Below, one piece after another: positions 5,678 through 14,355 of a stretch of DNA of 14,355 nt (its first letter is position 1; every line of letters starts with the position of its first letter). This DNA is from a bacterium (GTDB lineage: Bacteria; UBP15; UBA6099; DSWB01), in assembly GCA_020061125.1 (NCBI GenBank), contig JAGUYV010000399.1, positions 1 to 14,355 on the forward strand, in the 5' to 3' direction. A model generated the notes under the pieces. It was not told the DNA's origin and did no database searches. It saw only the letters and a program-made list of their open reading frames with translations. Made by a program: the position numbers and the translations under genes.

Positions 5678-7090
5678 ATGGCTTCAGAACCCGCGACCCA
5701 GGAAGCTGCACCCCAGGAAACCCAGCAATCCACGCAGGAAAAGTCCCCCAAGAAGAAATACTTTTACCACATGGAAGAGCCGTGCACTGATGATTGCGCG
5801 CGAAAATTTCTCGCGGCCTTCGCCACGGTGCTCAAGCACTCCAACTACAAGTATGCGCTTGACAACTACTCGCGCGTGTCCATGCACTGCGGCCGCTGCG
5901 CCACCCTGTGCCCGGTGTACGAGGTCACCAAGGACCCCAAAGACATTCCGTGCTACCGCACCAATCTGCTGGTGCGCATCTACAAGCGCTACTTCACCCT
6001 CACCGGGCATCTCAAAACCAAATACATGAGCAGTAATTTTCATCTGCAGGACAAGGACATTGACGAGCTGCTCGAAAGCCTTTACCGGTGCACCGCGTGC
6101 CGGCGCTGCTGGCTCGAGTGCCCCATGGGCATTGACCACGGCCTCATGACCCACATGGGCCGTTACATTTTGAGCGAGATGCGCGTCATGCCGCGCGCCC
6201 TGCAGGTGGCCACGCGCTCGCAGCTCGAAGGCCCCATCTTCAACACCTCGGCCATCCCCCTGCCCGCGCTCCAGGACACCATCGAGTTCCTGGAAGAAGA
6301 AGCCGCGGACATCACCGGACAGGAAATCAAGTTCCCCCTGGGCCAGAAGGACAAGGAATATGTGTTCTTCGCCCCGGTGAGCGACTACATGATGGAAGCC
6401 GAAACGCTCATGGGCTGCGCCGCGGCGCTCAAGGCCATGGGCCTGCAGGACAACTGGACCATCGGCGATGTGAACTACGACGGCATCAACTACGGCCTGT
6501 TCTACAGCGACTGGATATGGGAGCGGGTCATCAAGAACATGGTGGCCGAGGTCCGGCGGCTGAACGGCAAGAAGATCCTTATCGGCGAGTGCGGCCACGC
6601 CTCGCGCTCGGCCAAGGTGGGCGTGCCCCTGTGGGGCGGCAAGAATCCGCCGCCCGTGATCAACATCATGGAGCTGACCTGCGACGCCCTCAAGAACGGC
6701 CGCATGAAGCTCAACCCTGACCGGTGGACCCAGAAAGTCACTTACCACGACCCATGCAACCTGGCGCGCCTGGGCTGGGTTGTGGATCAGCCGCGCTATA
6801 TTATCAAACAATTCATCAAGAATTATGTGGAAATGACCCCCTCCGGGAGGTATAACTATTGCTGTGGCGGCGGCGGCGGGACCGTGTCCATGGACGAAAT
6901 CTACGATTTCCGCATGAACATCGGCGGCCTCAAGAAAGTTGAGCAGATGCAAGCCACGGGTGCGGAAATCGTCATCACCCCGTGCGCCAACTGCAAAAAG
7001 CAGGTCAACGAACTCATCCAGTACCATAAGCTGCCAATGGAGAACAAGGGCCTGCACGACATGATTCTCGAAGCCATTATCTGGGACTGA
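5678..7090 (+). CDS. HdrD/DsrK/HmcF-like iron-sulfur protein with CCG domain
   Basis: A 470-residue soluble iron-sulfur protein, the expected cytoplasmic catalytic subunit of the complex. Residues 71-78 (CGRCATLC) and 138-148 (CTACRRCWLEC) form the HdrC-like double [4Fe-4S] region. The C-terminal half has one full CCG domain: Cys360 (HDPC), Cys395-Cys396 (CCGGGGG) and Cys436/Cys439 (CANC). In HdrB/HdrD, CCG cysteines hold the noncubane or special cluster that handles disulfides. IGECGHA at 302-308 marks a degenerate first CCG domain, as in DsrK and HmcF. No signal peptide or membrane helix is seen. The position where the first Cys of cluster 1 would be expected is Ser68. The ATG at 5678 is the first possible start, since an in-frame TGA lies 12 bases before it; GAGGAG stands upstream at rather long spacing. 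Probable role: electron exchange with a DsrC-like or heterodisulfide-type partner. HmcF or TmcB are alternative names. Confidence 0.85.
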   Translation: MASEPATQEAAPQETQQSTQEKSPKKKYFYHMEEPCTDDCARKFLAAFATVLKHSNYKYALDNYSRVSMHCGRCATLCPVYEVTKDPKDIPCYRTNLLVRIYKRYFTLTGHLKTKYMSSNFHLQDKDIDELLESLYRCTACRRCWLECPMGIDHGLMTHMGRYILSEMRVMPRALQVATRSQLEGPIFNTSAIPLPALQDTIEFLEEEAADITGQEIKFPLGQKDKEYVFFAPVSDYMMEAETLMGCAAALKAMGLQDNWTIGDVNYDGINYGLFYSDWIWERVIKNMVAEVRRLNGKKILIGECGHASRSAKVGVPLWGGKNPPPVINIMELTCDALKNGRMKLNPDRWTQKVTYHDPCNLARLGWVVDQPRYIIKQFIKNYVEMTPSGRYNYCCGGGGGTVSMDEIYDFRMNIGGLKKVEQMQATGAEIVITPCANCKKQVNELIQYHKLPMENKGLHDMILEAIIWD

Positions 7091-7136
7091 CGCGCGCAAC
7101 CCGGACACGCGCGAGCCGACAGGAGGACACAAAAAA

Positions 7137-7871
7137 ATGGAACAGTGGCTGGCATACGCGAGAGGACCGCTTTTCCTTGCGACATTCTTATTCATGGTTC
7201 TGGCGCTGGTGCGTCTTGTGGCCATTCACCTGCTGGCCATGCGCAATGTATTGAACAACACCGAGAACAAGCAACTCGTGCCTTCAGCCCTGGTCAAGAG
7301 CGTGACCGACTGGATTCTGCCCCTGCATGTGCTCAAGACCCGCCCCCTGTTCGGCGTGACCTCGTTCATCTGGCACATCGGCATCATCCTGGTGCCGCTG
7401 CTGTTCGTGAGCCATGTCCTGCTCTGGGAGCGCGGCCTGGCCACGCTCATCCCCTATGTGGACAGCATTTCCCTGCCCGGCTTCATCAAAATGAACAAGC
7501 ACATCGCGGACCTGCTCACCATCATCGTGATTCTGTGCACCGCGGCCCTGTTCGTGATGCGCGCCGCAAACCCCGTGTCCCGCGCCATCAGCGAACCCGT
7601 GGACTACATCATTCTCGTGCTCATCGCCATCCCGTTCCTCACCGGGTTCCTGGCCGTTCACCCGTCCATGAACCCCATCCCGTACAATGCGACCATGCTC
7701 CTGCACATTCTTAGCGCCGAGGCCATTTTCGTGCTGATTCCGTTTACCAAAATGGCCCATGTGGCGCTGTTTCCGTTTGGTAGAATATCCAGCGACATTT
7801 ACTGGCGCTTCCCCGAGGGCGCCGGACACAAGATCGCCGGCGAAATGCACGGCGAGGAGGCAAAAGTATGA
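7137..7871 (+). CDS. NarI/HmcE-like diheme cytochrome b membrane subunit
   Basis: A 244-residue integral membrane protein with five probable helices (about 10-33, 76-97, 121-141, 155-176 and 190-213). It resembles the nitrate reductase gamma subunit family found as DsrM, TmcC and HmcE. Four histidines in paired helices, His80 (FIWH), His93 (VSH), His190 (LLH) and His208 (KMAH), are positioned to bind two b hemes across the membrane. It is shorter than DsrM and near the size of HmcE. It would exchange electrons between menaquinol and the HdrD-like protein encoded just upstream. An AGGAGG site precedes the ATG, and the stop codon overlaps the start of the next gene (ATGA), indicating translational coupling. 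Confidence 0.86.
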   Translation: MEQWLAYARGPLFLATFLFMVLALVRLVAIHLLAMRNVLNNTENKQLVPSALVKSVTDWILPLHVLKTRPLFGVTSFIWHIGIILVPLLFVSHVLLWERGLATLIPYVDSISLPGFIKMNKHIADLLTIIVILCTAALFVMRAANPVSRAISEPVDYIILVLIAIPFLTGFLAVHPSMNPIPYNATMLLHILSAEAIFVLIPFTKMAHVALFPFGRISSDIYWRFPEGAGHKIAGEMHGEEAKV

Positions 7872-8689
7872 GCGCAAAACACGGCCCCGGCGCAAACGCC
7901 ATGGCCATTCTCACCGATGTGACGCGTTGCGTCGGGTGCGAGAAATGCGTCATGGCGTGCGAGCGCACATGGAACACCGGCGACACCATTCCCTCGGTGC
8001 ACGCCGCGCCGGACGGGTTGTCCGGCAACCGCTGGACCAGCATCGTCAAAATCAAGGACCGCTTCGTGCGCAAGCAGTGCCTGCACTGCGTGGATCCCTC
8101 GTGCGTGGGCGCGTGCCCGGTGCATGCGTTCTACAAGATGGAAAACGGCGCGGTCATCTACAAGGCCGGAAAGTGCATCGGCTGCCGCTACTGCATGCTG
8201 GCATGCCCGTACTCCATCCCGCGCTACGACTGGGACGAGCCGAAACCTTTCGTTCAGAAGTGCAAACTCTGCTACGACCGGCTGCTCGAAGGCCAGCGCC
8301 CGGCGTGCACCCAGGCGTGCCCTTACGGCGCAACCATCTTCGGCACCCGCACCGAGATGATTGCGGAAGCGCACAAGCGCCTCAAGGCCCGGCACAACGG
8401 CGTCGAGGCGGCGAACTACATTGACAAAATCTGGGGCCTGCACGACTACGGCGGCACCTCGGTCATGTATCTGTCCGATGTGAACCTGTACGAACTCGGG
8501 TTCCCAACGCCCGGCAAGGTGTCGGCTCCGTACGACTCCATTCCCGGCCACTATTCGCATCCCGTGGCCCTGCAGACGCCGTTCCTGGCCGCCACGGTGT
8601 TCGGCTCCCTGGCCGGCATCACCTGGATCATCAACCGCCGCATGGCCGCGGCCGAGCAGAAGCAGAAGGAAAAGGAAAAGGATTATTAA
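7868..8689 (+). CDS. HybA/HmcB-like protein with four [4Fe-4S] clusters and a C-terminal anchor
   Basis: A 273-residue electron-transfer subunit of the DmsB/NrfC/HybA family. Sixteen cysteines are arranged in four sets: 21/24/27/31, 71/74/79/83, 103/106/109/113 and 132/135/147/151, the last set with the usual long gap. One membrane helix follows at about 236-256 and then a basic tail (RRM...KQKEKEK). HmcB and HybA also carry a C-terminal anchor. The basic tail argues, by the positive-inside rule, for a periplasmic cluster domain, yet no twin-arginine or Sec signal is visible at the N-terminus. It may be exported with a partner, or face the cytoplasm. GAGGAGG lies seven bases before the ATG, and the gene overlaps its upstream neighbour by four bases. 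It should wire the multiheme cytochrome to the NrfD-type subunit. Confidence 0.86.
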   Translation: MSAKHGPGANAMAILTDVTRCVGCEKCVMACERTWNTGDTIPSVHAAPDGLSGNRWTSIVKIKDRFVRKQCLHCVDPSCVGACPVHAFYKMENGAVIYKAGKCIGCRYCMLACPYSIPRYDWDEPKPFVQKCKLCYDRLLEGQRPACTQACPYGATIFGTRTEMIAEAHKRLKARHNGVEAANYIDKIWGLHDYGGTSVMYLSDVNLYELGFPTPGKVSAPYDSIPGHYSHPVALQTPFLAATVFGSLAGITWIINRRMAAAEQKQKEKEKDY

Positions 8690-8692
8690 TAT

Positions 8693-8720
8693 TCGAAGCG
8701 GCGCGCGCGCCGCGGTTCGA
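8693..8720. promoter_or_regulatory. Strong intra-operon stem-loop
   Basis: A perfect 16-base palindrome GCGGCGCGCGCGCCGC (8698-8713) is bounded by TCGAA (8693-8697) and TTCGA (8716-8720), so up to 13 base pairs can stack with a two-base bulge. It begins three bases after the stop of the iron-sulfur gene and fills part of the only sizeable gap (71 bases) downstream of the second gene of the operon. No T-run follows, so termination is unlikely; RNA processing, stability control or a protein-binding site are possible. Confidence 0.5.
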
Positions 8721-8760
8721 CCCGGTGGAAATCCATTAATGCACGCGGAGTAAGCAGACT

Positions 8761-9888
8761 ATGAAAAGACTAATGATACTCAAATCCGTGCTCATCGTGA
8801 TCGCCATATTCGGGCTGATCGCCTGCATCGGCCGTTTCGCGTTCGGCCTGGGCGCGGCCACGGCCGTGAGCGACCAGATCCCGTGGGGCCAGTGGAAGGT
8901 GCTGAACATGGTCGCGGGCGCTGCGCTCGGAACCTGCGGCTTCGTCACCGCGCTCATCGTGGTGGTGCTGCGCTTCGAGCGCTTCGAGCCGCTGCTGCGC
9001 CCGGCCACGCTCATCGCGTTCCTCGGCTACGGCTCGTCCTGCTTTGCGCTCCTGCTCGACATCGGTCTCCCGTGGCGCATTTACCACCCGTTTATTTTCC
9101 CCAATATCCACTCGTTTCTGTTCGAAGTCTCGGTCTGCGTCACCTTCTACTTCACCGTCACCGCCATTGAAATGATCCCCATCGTCACGGAGCGGGGCAT
9201 TCTGCACAAGTTCCACAACCTGGGCCACAAGATCCACCACTATGTGGTGCCCATCGTAATCATTGGCATCACCCTTTCGAGCATGCACCATACCTCTCTG
9301 GGCGCGCTGTTCGTGCCGTCTCCCGAGCGCCTGCACCCCATCTGGTACTCGCCGTGGCTGAACTGGATCTTCATTATCTCGGCCATGGGCGCGGGCATGA
9401 TGACCCTGGTGTGGGTGTGCCTCACCGTGGCCGGGCTGTACAACCGCAAGGCCGACCTGCGCCTGCTGCAGGCCGCGGCTTTCATCTCGGTGTTCTTCCT
9501 GTGCTTCTACGGAGCCATCAAGGCCGTGGACCTGTCCGCGCGCCATGTGTGGCCCATCATCTTCAGCGGCCAGTGGGAGGGCGCGGTGTTCATCCTCGAG
9601 TCCCTGCTGCTCGTGGTTGTGCCCGTGGCGGTCATGATCAGCCCGGCCCGGCGCACATCGGCCGGCCTGCTCGTCGCGTCCGTGTCCGCCATCATCGGCC
9701 TGGTCATGAACCGGCTGAATGTGGGCATCGTGGGCTTCTTCCGTTCCGCGGGCGCCACATACTTCCCGTCCATCGGCGAGCTTTTCATCGGCCTGGGCGT
9801 CATGGCCGGCGCGGCCCTGCTGTTCTTCGTCATTGTGGAAAATTACGAGATTTACGATAAACCCCCGGTTCTCCCCAAGGAGGTCTGA
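8761..9888 (+). CDS. HybB/HmcC-like (NrfD/PsrC superfamily) membrane subunit
   Basis: A 375-residue, very hydrophobic protein with about ten membrane helices, for example 7-26, 50-72, 82-103, 121-141, 162-182, 200-225, 237-256, 272-292, 298-318 and 335-358. The phrases SMHHTSLGALF, LHPIWYSPW, and MNRLNVG followed by TYFPS are characteristic of the HybB branch of the NrfD/PsrC superfamily, which includes HmcC. These proteins bind a menaquinone/menaquinol near one face of the membrane and carry no heme; they pass electrons through the partner iron-sulfur protein. The length is normal for HybB/HmcC. A GGAG site lies about ten bases before the ATG. The gene's last codons contain the ribosome site of the following cytochrome gene, so the two are tightly coupled. 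Confidence 0.9.
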   Translation: MKRLMILKSVLIVIAIFGLIACIGRFAFGLGAATAVSDQIPWGQWKVLNMVAGAALGTCGFVTALIVVVLRFERFEPLLRPATLIAFLGYGSSCFALLLDIGLPWRIYHPFIFPNIHSFLFEVSVCVTFYFTVTAIEMIPIVTERGILHKFHNLGHKIHHYVVPIVIIGITLSSMHHTSLGALFVPSPERLHPIWYSPWLNWIFIISAMGAGMMTLVWVCLTVAGLYNRKADLRLLQAAAFISVFFLCFYGAIKAVDLSARHVWPIIFSGQWEGAVFILESLLLVVVPVAVMISPARRTSAGLLVASVSAIIGLVMNRLNVGIVGFFRSAGATYFPSIGELFIGLGVMAGAALLFFVIVENYEIYDKPPVLPKEV

Positions 9889-9892
9889 ACCC

Positions 9893-10633
9893 ATGTCCGA
9901 CGACAAACGCCCCGATGTGTCCTTTGATCCCGTCACGAATGTCTGGGACAGCATTATCCACAACCCGATCCACAAGTTGAGCATGGTCGCGGTCGTGGCC
10001 CTGGCGGTCTCGATTCCATTCCTGTGGCACTTCGACACATCGCTCAAGGGCATGCCCCTTCGCAACGAGCCGGTGCAGGCGCCCAAGAGCGCGGACCAGA
10101 CGCGCGCCGTGCTCATCATAGACGGCAACCGCGACAACTATGTGGCCGAGTTCAAGCATGCACAGCACCAGGAAATGCTCGGAGGCGAAGAGTCCTGCGC
10201 CAAATGCCACCACATTGACAAGCCCAACAACCTGTTCACCGCCTGCTTCCACTGCCACAGCAGCATGGCCCAGCCCACAGCCATCTTCAACCACACCTTC
10301 CACATCAACAAGCTCGGCGGCAACAAGGGCTGCAACACCTGCCACCCCGACGAAAGCAAGCCCAAATGGCGCACCAACGCCGTGCACTGCTCCGAATGCC
10401 ACAGCAAGGACATGCGCATGCAGAAACCCGCGGCGTCCAAAAACGGCGAACCCGCGCCCTCGTTCAACTATATGGCCCCCAGCTACGCCGACGCCATGCA
10501 CAAGCTCTGCATCGAATGCCACCGCACCATGGACTTGAGCGCCGAGCGCAAGCAGCCCATGGAAGAATGCAACTTCTGCCACGCGGGGGCCAAAAAGACG
10601 CACCCCAACATCGAGGAAAACGGCGCCAACTGA
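9893..10633 (+). CDS. Membrane-anchored six-heme cytochrome c
   Basis: A 246-residue protein with a polar N-terminal segment, one membrane helix at about 29-46, and a periplasmic domain with six CXXCH sites starting at Cys102, 118, 147, 166, 206 and 226. Additional histidines (for example 89, 92, 107, 134, 137, 203, 237) are enough to give bis-His ligation to all hemes. The anchor with a 28-residue N-terminal extension has no cleavage site, so it should stay as an uncleaved signal anchor. Heme number and anchoring recall QrcA, the hexaheme subunit of the Qrc complex, but no QrcB-type gene is present; the HmcA, TmcA and DsrJ subunits have 16, 4 and 3 hemes. It would take electrons from, or give them to, soluble periplasmic cytochromes. 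AAGGAGGT eight bases upstream of the ATG fixes the start. Confidence 0.88.
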   Translation: MSDDKRPDVSFDPVTNVWDSIIHNPIHKLSMVAVVALAVSIPFLWHFDTSLKGMPLRNEPVQAPKSADQTRAVLIIDGNRDNYVAEFKHAQHQEMLGGEESCAKCHHIDKPNNLFTACFHCHSSMAQPTAIFNHTFHINKLGGNKGCNTCHPDESKPKWRTNAVHCSECHSKDMRMQKPAASKNGEPAPSFNYMAPSYADAMHKLCIECHRTMDLSAERKQPMEECNFCHAGAKKTHPNIEENGAN

Positions 10634-10777: not shown

Positions 10778-11821
10778 TCAGAACCCGGTCACAAGCACCG
10801 GAACTGCGGAATCCGTGGTCGTTCCATCTCCAAGGGCGCCTTGAGCGTTGTACCCCCAGCACCATATTGTGCCGTTTTCAAGCATTAAACAGGTATGAAG
10901 AGAGGACGATAGCTGCACGGCTGTGCTGATGCCGGTTACATCAACGGGGATCAGAGAACTCTGGGTCGAACCGTTCCCAAGCCCTCCGTACAACCCATCT
11001 CCCCAGCACTTGACAGTACCGTCGGGCATCTGTGCGCAGGTGTGATAAAAACCGGTACTGATGGACCTGGCGTTAGAGATTGAAACGGCTGCAACGGGCG
11101 TTAGCGAGTTTATCGTTGTCCCGTCACCGAGCTGGCCATGTGAATTGTGCCCCCAGCACATGGCCTGTCCGCTGCCAAGCACAGCGCATGTCTGGTAATA
11201 ATGAGCGGAAATTGAAACGGCGTTCGAAATGCCCAGCACAGTTACGGGAATGGAAGAAGTTATTGTTATCCCGTTCCCCAGGGCGCCATATTGATTGGAC
11301 CCCCAGCATTTCACTTCGCCGCTGGACAGCACGGCGCAGAAATGATAATACCCCGCTGCTATGGACACGGCGTTTGAGATGCCTGTCACATCCACGGGTG
11401 CTGAAGAGTCGGCTATATTTCCGTTTCCGAGTTGTCCCCAGAAATTAGCGCCCCAGCATTTCACACTCCCATTGGACAGCACAGCGCATGTGCTGTACAA
11501 CGCGACCGCGATGGACCTGGCCGATGAAATGCCCGTCACATCCACGGGTACCAAGGAGGTGGCAGTATTTCCGTTTCCGAGCTGTCCATAAGAATTGTCA
11601 CCCCAGCATTTCATGCTTCCATCGGTCAGCAAGGCGCAGACACTCATTCCGCCGCCGGCGACAGCGGCCGCATTCGAGATGCCCTGTACGCTGACGGGGA
11701 CCAGCGACCTCATTGTGGTTCCATTGCCAAGTGTTCCATATTGATTGAATCCCCAGCATTTGATGCCTCCGGATTCCTGGACGGCGCATGTATGGTTTGA
11801 TGCTGCGGCAACTCTGCTTCC
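10778..11821 (-). repeat. Seven RCC1 repeats (approx. 150-bp period)
   Basis: Seven consecutive units of about 50 residues carry the pattern (H/S)xCAxxxxGxxxCWGxNxxGxLGxG, then PVxVxGIS and a small-residue strand. This matches RCC1 repeats and suggests one complete seven-bladed propeller. Each blade has two cysteines (CA and CWG) that could pair within the blade, unlike eukaryotic RCC1. The copies differ enough that recent expansion is unlikely. Confidence 0.88.
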
Positions 11822-14355
11822 CGGTTCGTGGGTGCATGCAGCACTGCATGTGCCCGCGGCCAGGCAGTAGTCCGGGGTGTCGGGGTTGCTGTCGTCGCAA
11901 TCCGCGGCGCTGGAACACAATGATGTGCAGTGCGCGCACACAGCCGTGCATGTGCCGGGATTCTGGCACTCGTCCGCTGTGGCGGGGTCGGCGTCCGCAC
12001 AGTCAGTGTTCTGCGTGCATGCGGGCGTGCAGTTGGAACAAGATGAAATGCAGGTATTCGGATAGTTGCAGATATCCAGTGCGGTGGAGGGATTGCCGTC
12101 ATCGCAATCAGCGTTGCTCGAACATGTCACACAGGACACATTGGAGCAAGTGGCGCCGCATGTTGCCTGATTGTTGCATGTGTCGGTTGTAAGCGGGTTG
12201 CCGTCATCGCATTGTGTATCGTTGCTGCACACCACGGAACACGCCGTGTTGGAGCAAGAGGCTGCGCATGTGCCGGGATTGTTGCATGTGTCCGTAGTCA
12301 GCGGGTTGCCGTCAGTGCACCCCGCATCCGAGGAGCAGGCCGGGGTGCAGGCCGTGTGTGCGCATGCGGAGGAACATGTGCCGGGGCTGGAGCAGGTGTC
12401 AATGGTGAGCGCGTTGCCGTCATCGCACTGGGTGTCGTTGCTGCACGCTATGGCACAGTGCTCGCACTGCGCCGAGCATGTGCCGGGGTTGAGGCAAGTG
12501 TCCAGAGTTGCGGCGTTGCTGTCGTTGCATGTGGCGTTGCTGGAGCAGGCCGGAGTGCAGGCCGTGTGAGCGCAGGCCGCGCTGCATGTGCCCGGATTGG
12601 CGCAGGTGTCTATAGTGAGCGGGTTGCCATCACTGCAGGCCGCGTCCGCGGAGCAGGCGACTTCACATTCCAAATGATGGCACGCGGCGTCGCATGTGCC
12701 CGCGCTGGTGCAGAGGTCCGTAGTGAGCGGATTGGAGTCGTTGCACGCCGCATCCGAGGCGCAGGCCGAGGTGCAGGCCGTGTGCGCGCACTGCGCATCG
12801 CATGTGCCGGGGCTGGCGCACGCGTCCCGGGTGAGGGGATTGCCGTCGTCGCATCCCGGATCCGCGGTGCATGCGATGGTGCATGAGCTGTGGAAGCACT
12901 GCGCGCTGCATGTGCCGGGATTGGCGCACGAGTCCACGGTCATCTCCACGCCGTCGTTGCATCCCGCGTCCGAGGAGCATGCCGGGGTGCAGGGCGAGTG
13001 CGTGCATGCGGCCGCGCAGGTGCCGGGATTGGCGCAGGAATCAACGGTGAGGGGATTTCCGTCGTCGCAGGCGGAATCCGCGGAGCAGGCCACGGCGCAC
13101 GCGCTGTTCGAGCACGAAGCGTCGCATGCGCCCGCGTTCACGCATGTGTCCATGGTGTACGGGCTGCTGTCCGTGCAGTCCGCATCCGAAGCGCATACAG
13201 GTGCGCATGCGGTGTTGCTGCACTCGGCCCCGCACTGGCCGGGGTTCACGCAGATGTCCGTGGTTGCGGGATTGTCATCTTCACAATCTGCACTGTCGGA
13301 GCACCCGATCTCGCAGAAGCCTGGATTTACATGGATGTTGAAGTTGTCGCCCTTTTCCCAGCGCGTGCGGTTCATGCGCACGGTGTAAATGTCGTAGTCC
13401 GATCCCTGGGGGCTGTCCGTGGCCGCCCAGTCGCCGGGGATGGTTTTGGTGATCACGCGCTGCACATTCTGCTGCCCCGGATAGATGGTGATGAAAATGT
13501 CATCGTCAAAGGACGACCATACGGGGTTGTCCCCATCGCGCTTAAGCGCGGTTTCCACACCGCAGTAGATGGCTTCGGATCCGGCGTTGCTGGCGGAGAG
13601 GGTGATGGTCATGGTTTCGCCGGGGGTGTAGTTGACCTTGTCCAGCTGAAGGTCGCACTCCACGCGCTCGTGTGCGCATGTGGCGTTGCAGGTGTCCGGG
13701 TACAGGCATGCGTCGAGCGTATCAATGTCCCCGTCATCGCAAGCCGCATTCGAGGTGCACGCCATTTCGCACGAGCCGACAACAAGTGTGGCGTCCGAGC
13801 ACGCCGTGATCGTGGCCACATTGGATTTCTGGCCGTCCTTTTCCGCCCACACGGTCCAGGAAACATCTGCGGGTGCATTGTAGAACCGGATCCAGCTATC
13901 GTTGGAAAACATTGAATATTTGAACCAGCCTGGAATGGATGCGCTGAAGGTTGCCCCGCGCACGGGGTTGCCCGCGCCGTCCACGATGCGGATGTAGGGC
14001 TTGCCGTTTGGACATCGTGTACTCTTCCAGTCCAGGTTGAGCCAGGTCAAATGGCTCATGGGGAAGATCACAAACAGGCCCGCGGCGTCCTGCTGCACTG
14101 TGGCGCGCTTCACGCTTCCGTCCGGGTTTTCCTCCACGACCCATTCGCCGGTGGATTCGTTGAACGCGAAGATGGGCACGGTGTCGCCCGCGGCCACGGT
14201 TGCGCCGGTCTCGGGGTTGGTCACGCCGTCCGGGATGCGCATGGTGATGGAAATGGTGTTGCCGCCGAATGAGGTGATGGGATTGCCCGCGGCGTCCTCG
14301 AGGGTGACGCGCGCGAACCCGCCGGTGATGAGCGCGCCCGTGCCGGACCCGCCTG
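10778..14355 (-). CDS. Large extracellular cysteine-rich repeat / RCC1 propeller protein (partial)
   Basis: The reading frame is open from the right edge to a TGA at 10778, about 1192 codons, so the true N-terminus lies outside the window; the ATG at 14242 is internal. From the N-terminal side it contains: a beta-rich part with VTLEDAAGNPI, RIPDGVTNP, DTVPIFAF and HLTWLNLDW; a second possible Ig/carboxypeptidase-regulatory-like part (PYIRIVDGAGNPVRGATF); one six-Cys repeat (DNA 13655-13771); a CARDB-like beta segment beginning LDKVNYTPGETMTITLSAS; fourteen tandem six-Cys repeats (DNA 11822-13316); and seven RCC1 repeats to the C-terminus. The cysteine content and repeat type point to a secreted, disulfide-bonded surface or adhesion protein. 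There is no C-terminal sorting motif; the chain ends in the last propeller blade (PVLVTGF). A signal peptide cannot be checked. Function unknown; adhesion or matrix binding is a guess. Confidence 0.87.
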   Translation of the reverse strand, partial: GGSGTGALITGGFARVTLEDAAGNPITSFGGNTISITMRIPDGVTNPETGATVAAGDTVPIFAFNESTGEWVVEENPDGSVKRATVQQDAAGLFVIFPMSHLTWLNLDWKSTRCPNGKPYIRIVDGAGNPVRGATFSASIPGWFKYSMFSNDSWIRFYNAPADVSWTVWAEKDGQKSNVATITACSDATLVVGSCEMACTSNAACDDGDIDTLDACLYPDTCNATCAHERVECDLQLDKVNYTPGETMTITLSASNAGSEAIYCGVETALKRDGDNPVWSSFDDDIFITIYPGQQNVQRVITKTIPGDWAATDSPQGSDYDIYTVRMNRTRWEKGDNFNIHVNPGFCEIGCSDSADCEDDNPATTDICVNPGQCGAECSNTACAPVCASDADCTDSSPYTMDTCVNAGACDASCSNSACAVACSADSACDDGNPLTVDSCANPGTCAAACTHSPCTPACSSDAGCNDGVEMTVDSCANPGTCSAQCFHSSCTIACTADPGCDDGNPLTRDACASPGTCDAQCAHTACTSACASDAACNDSNPLTTDLCTSAGTCDAACHHLECEVACSADAACSDGNPLTIDTCANPGTCSAACAHTACTPACSSNATCNDSNAATLDTCLNPGTCSAQCEHCAIACSNDTQCDDGNALTIDTCSSPGTCSSACAHTACTPACSSDAGCTDGNPLTTDTCNNPGTCAASCSNTACSVVCSNDTQCDDGNPLTTDTCNNQATCGATCSNVSCVTCSSNADCDDGNPSTALDICNYPNTCISSCSNCTPACTQNTDCADADPATADECQNPGTCTAVCAHCTSLCSSAADCDDSNPDTPDYCLAAGTCSAACTHEPGSRVAAASNHTCAVQESGGIKCWGFNQYGTLGNGTTMRSLVPVSVQGISNAAAVAGGGMSVCALLTDGSMKCWGDNSYGQLGNGNTATSLVPVDVTGISSARSIAVALYSTCAVLSNGSVKCWGANFWGQLGNGNIADSSAPVDVTGISNAVSIAAGYYHFCAVLSSGEVKCWGSNQYGALGNGITITSSIPVTVLGISNAVSISAHYYQTCAVLGSGQAMCWGHNSHGQLGDGTTINSLTPVAAVSISNARSISTGFYHTCAQMPDGTVKCWGDGLYGGLGNGSTQSSLIPVDVTGISTAVQLSSSLHTCLMLENGTIWCWGYNAQGALGDGTTTDSAVPVLVTGF
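11822..13316 (-). repeat. Fourteen tandem six-cysteine repeats (approx. 108-bp period)
   Basis: The unit is about 36 residues with spacing C-x3-C-x5-C-x10-C-x5-C-x3-C-x4, and a conserved core such as CDDGNPLTTDTC then NPGTC. Fourteen units run from CEIGC (Cys codon ending at 13316) to the EP preceding the propeller. Some are short by one to three residues (for example the CVTC, CEH and CAH variants). They resemble the Cys-rich repeats of large secreted proteins of Myxococcota and Desulfobacterota. The Asp-rich core might bind calcium; that is inference. A fifteenth unit stands apart at 13655-13771. Confidence 0.88.

Follow-up and report, generated by a model that had tools for sequence, protein, structure and literature searches.

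What kind of respiratory complex is encoded by five consecutive genes, here called K, M, O, P and J, on a 14,355-nucleotide stretch of DNA (positions 1 to 14,355 of contig JAGUYV010000399.1, assembly GCA_020061125.1) from a bacterium of the GTDB lineage UBP15; UBA6099; DSWB01? The genes occupy positions 5678-10633 of this stretch, hereafter the window, as five complete open reading frames (ORFs) on the forward strand in the order K-M-O-P-J (Table 1). An earlier note, made from the sequence alone, had described them as an operon for a distinct redox complex that joins an HdrD/DsrK-like CCG protein, a NarI-like cytochrome b, a HybA-like iron-sulfur protein, a HybB-like quinone protein and a six-heme cytochrome. 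The ORF list, Pfam matches and six CxxCH motifs bear out this composition, 25 other operons have the K-M-O-P(J) order (in one of them the frame of K is broken; four more end at contig ends), and in trees K, M, O and P all branch outside the complexes described so far, which supports the distinctness. Our reading, to which we give a probability of about 0.6, is that the operon encodes a single transmembrane complex with two quinone-reactive halves, an undescribed member of the DsrMKJOP/Hmc/Tmc superfamily that is linked to DsrC in uncultured sulfate or sulfite reducers. No description of this gene set was found in open-access papers.

Table 1. Features of the K-M-O-P-J operon, in window coordinates
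Feature	Position	Strand	Details
K: HdrD/DsrK-like CCG protein	5678..7090	+	470 aa, cytoplasmic; Pfam CCG and Fer4_8
M: NarI/TmcC/HmcE-like membrane cytochrome b	7137..7871	+	244 aa; Pfam NarI, weak
O: HybA/HmcB-like ferredoxin, four [4Fe-4S]	7868..8689	+	273 aa; Pfam Fer4_11
P: HybB/HmcC-like NrfD-family quinone protein	8761..9888	+	375 aa; Pfam NrfD
AAGGAGGT: ribosome-binding site for J; overlaps the 3' end of P	9877..9884	+	from sequence
J: N-terminally anchored six-heme cytochrome c	9893..10633	+	246 aa; Pfam Cytochrom_CIII, 47 bits

Subunits and their relationships

Membership in Hmc, Tmc, Dsr or Qrc is ruled out by NCBIfam cut-offs and by trees, since no subunit reaches the equivalog cut-off for any of these complexes. 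The trees cover K, M, O and P, with references verified by cut-offs: Hmc and Tmc in one genome (G029; HmcB, HmcC and HmcF at 537, 674 and 911 bits), the Qrc locus, and the DsrK of the window's own genome (704 bits).

K carries two 4Fe-4S sites and a C-terminal CCG domain (C360-X34-CC395/396-X39-C436xxC439) whose cysteines are conserved in the aligned relatives. All the features of the broad class of HdrD/DsrK-like CCG oxidoreductases (CCG motif, two 4Fe-4S sites, HdrB-like fold) are present; the predicted structure (predicted local distance difference test, pLDDT, 79) resembles EtfD, LutA and HdrB, and a PDB sequence search returned a single matching chain, EtfD. Profile scores are 265 bits for DsrK (NF045796, cut-off 400), 195 for HmcF (750) and 191 for TmcB (735). 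The K clade (support 96/98), which includes two orphan K proteins, lies on the DsrK side of the tree, apart from HmcF/TmcB. M, with two b hemes, has four invariant His residues (80, 93, 190 and 208) that are common to TmcC, HmcE and DsrM; it scores 110 bits for TmcC (cut-off 240) and 95 for HmcE (275), and groups with TmcC/HmcE away from DsrM, the M group itself being weak (68/50).

P has 10 membrane helices, with both ends cytoplasmic by the positive-inside rule. The HybB proton-path residues R89, Y99, E148 and H184, substitution of which reduces hydrogen oxidation (PMC8076601), correspond to R80, Y90, E137 and H176 in P (R80 is Lys in some relatives), and in the window's protein Asn takes the place of HybB Asp58. 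With its NrfD domain, helices and proton-path residues, P has everything that broadly marks the HybB/HmcC branch of NrfD-like proteins. It scores 220 bits for HmcC (cut-off 550), 203 for HybB (450) and 121 for QrcD (570), and a PDB sequence search with P gave no match. In the tree it stands outside but beside HmcC (monophyletic, 100%) and apart from DsrP and QrcD, in a moderately supported group (71/81). J contains exactly six CxxCH motifs and one N-terminal membrane helix, which is predicted to place the hemes in the periplasm; its predicted model is poor (pLDDT 58), PDB sequence searches gave weak c7/c3 matches, and a profile search matched it weakly to part of HmcA.

The ferredoxin O has 16 Cys, enough for four 4Fe-4S clusters, that are invariant across 16 aligned sequences, and it scores 205 bits for HybA (cut-off 263), 193 for HmcB (420) and 65 for QrcC (400). 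The tree puts O outside but beside HmcB (monophyletic, 100%) and apart from DsrO and QrcC (O group 79/68, moderate). Twin-arginine (Tat) signals are present on HmcB, HybA and DsrO, and QrcC also does without one; no signal peptide was found on O in the window copy or in the relatives examined, whose O proteins begin just ahead of the first cluster. An overlooked upstream start that would supply a signal was considered and rejected, as the frame is closed by a stop codon 29 codons ahead of O and nothing hydrophobic is encoded in between. Because its single C-terminal membrane helix, followed by two arginines, resembles that of HybA, a periplasmic ferredoxin domain is suggested; how O would be exported is unexplained. 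Together, the trees describe a mosaic: K sides with DsrK, M groups with Hmc/Tmc, and O and P are neighbours of HmcB and HmcC.

The boundary between P and J deserves separate mention. The first start given by the ORF finder for J (9719) was judged spurious and 9893 was taken instead. A frameshift artefact is an unlikely cause of the P/J split, since J is preceded by a strong ribosome-binding site of its own; the split looks real because AAGGAGGT lies 8 nt before the J start codon and J is in a different frame from P. In all 26 relatives with both domains complete, P and J are a single fused protein, so the separate J of the window is most simply a derived split of a P-J fusion. The fusions carry six hemes except at two Omnitrophota loci, which have four. 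The five-part synteny that the earlier note had proposed to look for thus holds across phyla, but elsewhere as a four-gene operon.

Conservation and the link to sulfite and sulfate reduction

Scanning a genome collection and searching whole genomes retrieved relatives from Acidobacteriota, Calditrichota, Omnitrophota and several further lineages. Among 386 surveyed genomes (9 carriers, 377 others), full-length K proteins of the family scored 719-800 bits and two truncated copies 475 and 418, with all else at or below 370; the follow-up survey of other phyla covered Acidobacteriota. Across the family, the residues that bind cofactors and those of the HybB proton path vary little or not at all. 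All four subunit trees (K, M, O and P) show the same subgroups, which together with the conserved order fits joint inheritance of the set.

The earlier note had asked whether dsrAB and dsrC accompany the operon in one genome, and they do: in the window's genome (79% complete), dsrA, dsrB, a dsrN-like gene of the cobyrinate-synthase type and dsrC share one contig, and dsrMKJOP, aprA and qmoC are also present. Among 16 carrier genomes, dsrA is above cut-off in 13; the remaining three belong to one family and each has two contig ends (L144-L149) that stop inside the start of dsrA, so that the gene is probably present there too, perhaps duplicated. In the 386-genome survey, dsrA is above cut-off in 6/9 carriers vs 26/377 other genomes (Fisher p 1.4e-5, uncorrected for kinship), or in 9/9 carriers if the contig-end copies are counted. 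Within Acidobacteriota the figures are 13 of 14 carriers, one with a frameshift-broken gene, vs 3 of 20 non-carriers, again uncorrected for kinship and with the non-carriers taken as first listed rather than at random. Overall, dsrA occurs in 29/30 carriers (contig-end and frameshifted copies counted), a DsrC-family protein in 15/16 and aprA in 18 of the 19 tested. As almost all carriers have genes of sulfate or sulfite reduction, the complex is probably an unrecognised part of sulfur-compound respiration in these bacteria.

Gene neighbourhoods point the same way in some Acidobacteriota, where the operon adjoins dsrAB, dsrMKJOP genes or sat. At two loci (L168 and L173) dsrAB follows directly downstream, in one of them after a YeiH-like transporter; at L167 dsrKJOP lies upstream; at L178 dsrAB-dsrC-dsrMK is divergent from the operon; and at L019 sat and two TauE exporters are downstream. 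Elsewhere, PAS sensor kinases, receiver proteins and sigma-54 activators are frequent neighbours. A link to periplasmic hydrogen or formate, which the earlier note had suggested, finds less support: no such neighbour recurs consistently, and the context (dsrAB, dsrMKJOP and sat, in some genomes) favours dissimilatory sulfite/sulfate reduction.

Further redox loci were noted in the window's genome and elsewhere. In the window's genome a Hmc-like set is apparently split between two contigs, with M-K-12-heme on C167 and O-P on C339; in a genome of the same order (G001) the corresponding M-K-cytochrome-O-P cluster is intact and its HmcB and HmcC are above cut-off. As the window's genome holds its own DsrMKJOP and a Hmc-like complex, K-M-O-P-J is an additional complex. 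The same genome encodes a Tat-less HmcB-like ferredoxin, an HmcC-like NrfD protein and a 609-aa cytochrome with 28 CxxCH motifs (L150 5088-9040), which make up another unassigned complex, as well as a second M-K pair of a 314/556-aa type (L010 5122-7682); pairs of that type also precede the new operon by a few kb at L019 198-1802, L168 1276-3785 and L173 11810-14421. On its aprA contig (L009 439-8730) are HdrA-like (QmoA/B-type) genes, qmoC, a coenzyme A (CoA)-disulfide reductase-rhodanese gene and, after these, a second K paralogue, and an orphan K near qmoC and a CoA-disulfide reductase-rhodanese gene also occurs in an Omnitrophota genome. At L125 7622-8991 a K-like gene that runs off its contig precedes a gene for a protein with two DsrC domains.

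Beyond the operon, the window encodes on the reverse strand a LeuA/homocitrate synthase-like HMGL enzyme beside an acyl carrier protein (469-2251) and a long cysteine-rich repeat protein of 1191 aa with RCC1 repeats at its end by Pfam (10778-14353), which extends past the window.

Proposed electron path and alternatives

The predicted architecture has two modules, a periplasmic half of cytochrome, ferredoxin and NrfD-type protein and a cytoplasm-facing half of cytochrome b and CCG protein; a two-module quinone complex has already been proposed for DsrMKJOP (PMC8076601). In such an assembly J would serve as a periplasmic six-heme wire, and J and O would trade electrons with menaquinone via P, which may retain the HybB proton path and so could translocate protons. 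M would carry electrons across the membrane through its two b hemes to K, whose CCG site may reduce or oxidise a cytoplasmic protein disulfide or trisulfide. Co-occurrence with dsr genes and local adjacency make DsrC the likeliest partner of K. In sulfate reducers the net effect would be that periplasmic cytochrome c, menaquinol or both supply electrons to DsrC-trisulfide, alongside DsrMKJOP.

Several observations weigh against this picture. DsrMKJOP is already present in the window's genome, and the need for a second DsrC reductase is unexplained. O lacks the Tat signal that a subunit working in the periplasm would be expected to carry, which leaves its place in the electron path unclear. Most operons do not adjoin dsr genes, one (L174) has a NiFe hydrogenase downstream, and all named carriers are metagenome-assembled genomes.

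The best-surviving alternative, though itself unlikely, is that the complex works outward: K and M would take electrons from DsrC or sulfane sulfur and pass them via menaquinone to J, which would hand them to acceptors in the periplasm or outside the cell, in sulfur oxidation, disproportionation or extracellular electron transfer. Direction is not readable from sequence, the window's genome has other large multiheme cytochromes (12- and 28-heme), and dsr and apr genes serve oxidation too (PMC10504309); however, the operon stands beside sat and dsrAB, and reduction fits these data at least equally. Somewhat less probable still is that K-M and O-P-J are independent neighbouring modules, with K acting on another thiol (DsrC-like tandem proteins, CoA-disulfide or TusA). 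G001 does split the set over two contigs, as K-M-J and M-O-PJ, orphan K genes adjoin CoA-disulfide reductase-rhodanese genes, and in G012 a tandem DsrC-like protein is encoded downstream of a K-like gene, but the single order of all parts in the 25 other operons and the agreement of the subunit trees argue for one complex. Just as improbable is a divergent Hmc without HmcD and with a shortened cytochrome, passing periplasmic hydrogen or formate electrons to the cytoplasm, for although O and P are nearest HmcB/HmcC and HybA/HybB, M is nearest TmcC/HmcE and J weakly matches a piece of HmcA, all subunits fall far under the Hmc cut-offs, K sides with DsrK, the genes run in the opposite order, neither HmcD nor the Tat signal is there, and a separate Hmc-like complex exists in the window's genome and two other carriers.

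A broader proposal, put forward tentatively and at somewhat less than even odds, is that the operon represents a further, as yet unnamed DsrMKJOP/Hmc-type family spread over several phyla of uncultured sulfate reducers: a second DsrC-linked complex, with its cytochrome fused to the quinone protein and a Tat-less ferredoxin, that would join periplasmic (perhaps interspecies or extracellular) electrons to sulfite reduction. The link from electron donors to DsrC is poorly known in uncultured sulfate reducers beyond the classical groups, and an extra complex tied to dsr would add a missing piece. A fused NrfD-hexaheme protein beside an HdrD-like protein offers a marker for annotation, and the locus opens a test of whether periplasmic cytochromes can feed DsrC without DsrMKJOP.

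Comparison with described complexes

Surveys so far name DsrMKJOP, Hmc, Tmc, Ohc and Qrc; NrfD-type complexes are surveyed in PMC8076601, and a related survey covers Hmc, Tmc, Ohc and HdrED (PMC10504309). What the earlier note had stated about these systems agreed with the reference loci, save for one heme count. HybA and HybB of hydrogenase-2 resemble O and P, down to the proton-path residues, but the new operon lacks hydrogenase subunits, O lacks the Tat signal and HybB Asp58 is replaced by Asn. Qrc likewise combines an NrfD-type protein, a ferredoxin without its own Tat signal and an anchored multiheme cytochrome. It differs in its molybdopterin-type QrcB, a Tat-bearing protein seen at the Qrc locus and absent from the operon, whereas the new set has K and M, and its O and P fall outside the QrcC and QrcD clades; the six hemes ascribed to Qrc were not recovered, as just five CxxCH can be counted in QrcA. 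At two loci (L087 265-10608 and L119 287-10696), qrcABCD is followed in one cluster by a TmcC-like/TmcB-like pair and a 14-heme cytochrome.

Tmc shares the pairing of K- and M-type subunits with a c-type cytochrome, and TmcC is the best profile match of M. The true Tmc locus, in the order C-B-A, has a tetraheme TmcA and no HybA/HybB-type pair, whereas the new operon has six hemes and both O and P, and its K is far from TmcB. Hmc is matched in kind by O (HmcB), P (HmcC), M (HmcE) and K (HmcF), with a cytochrome, a HybA/HybB pair and a NarI/HdrD pair in both. The true Hmc locus begins with the 16-heme HmcA and ends with HmcF; the new five-gene, six-heme set places its cytochrome last, lacks HmcA, HmcD and a Tat signal on O, and its K lies outside the HmcF/TmcB clade.

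DsrMKJOP, the membrane complex of sulfite reduction, likewise combines a CCG protein, a diheme cytochrome b, a 4Fe-4S protein, an NrfD-type protein and a small multiheme cytochrome with a membrane anchor. K sides with DsrK in the tree, and the two complexes occur in the same genomes and at times in the same gene cluster. In the DsrMKJOP locus of the window's genome, DsrJ is triheme and DsrO bears a Tat signal. In contrast, the new set has six hemes, a cytochrome usually fused to P, another gene order, a P of HybB/HmcC type rather than DsrP, an M of TmcC/HmcE type and an O without a Tat signal, with O and P outside the DsrO and DsrP clades.

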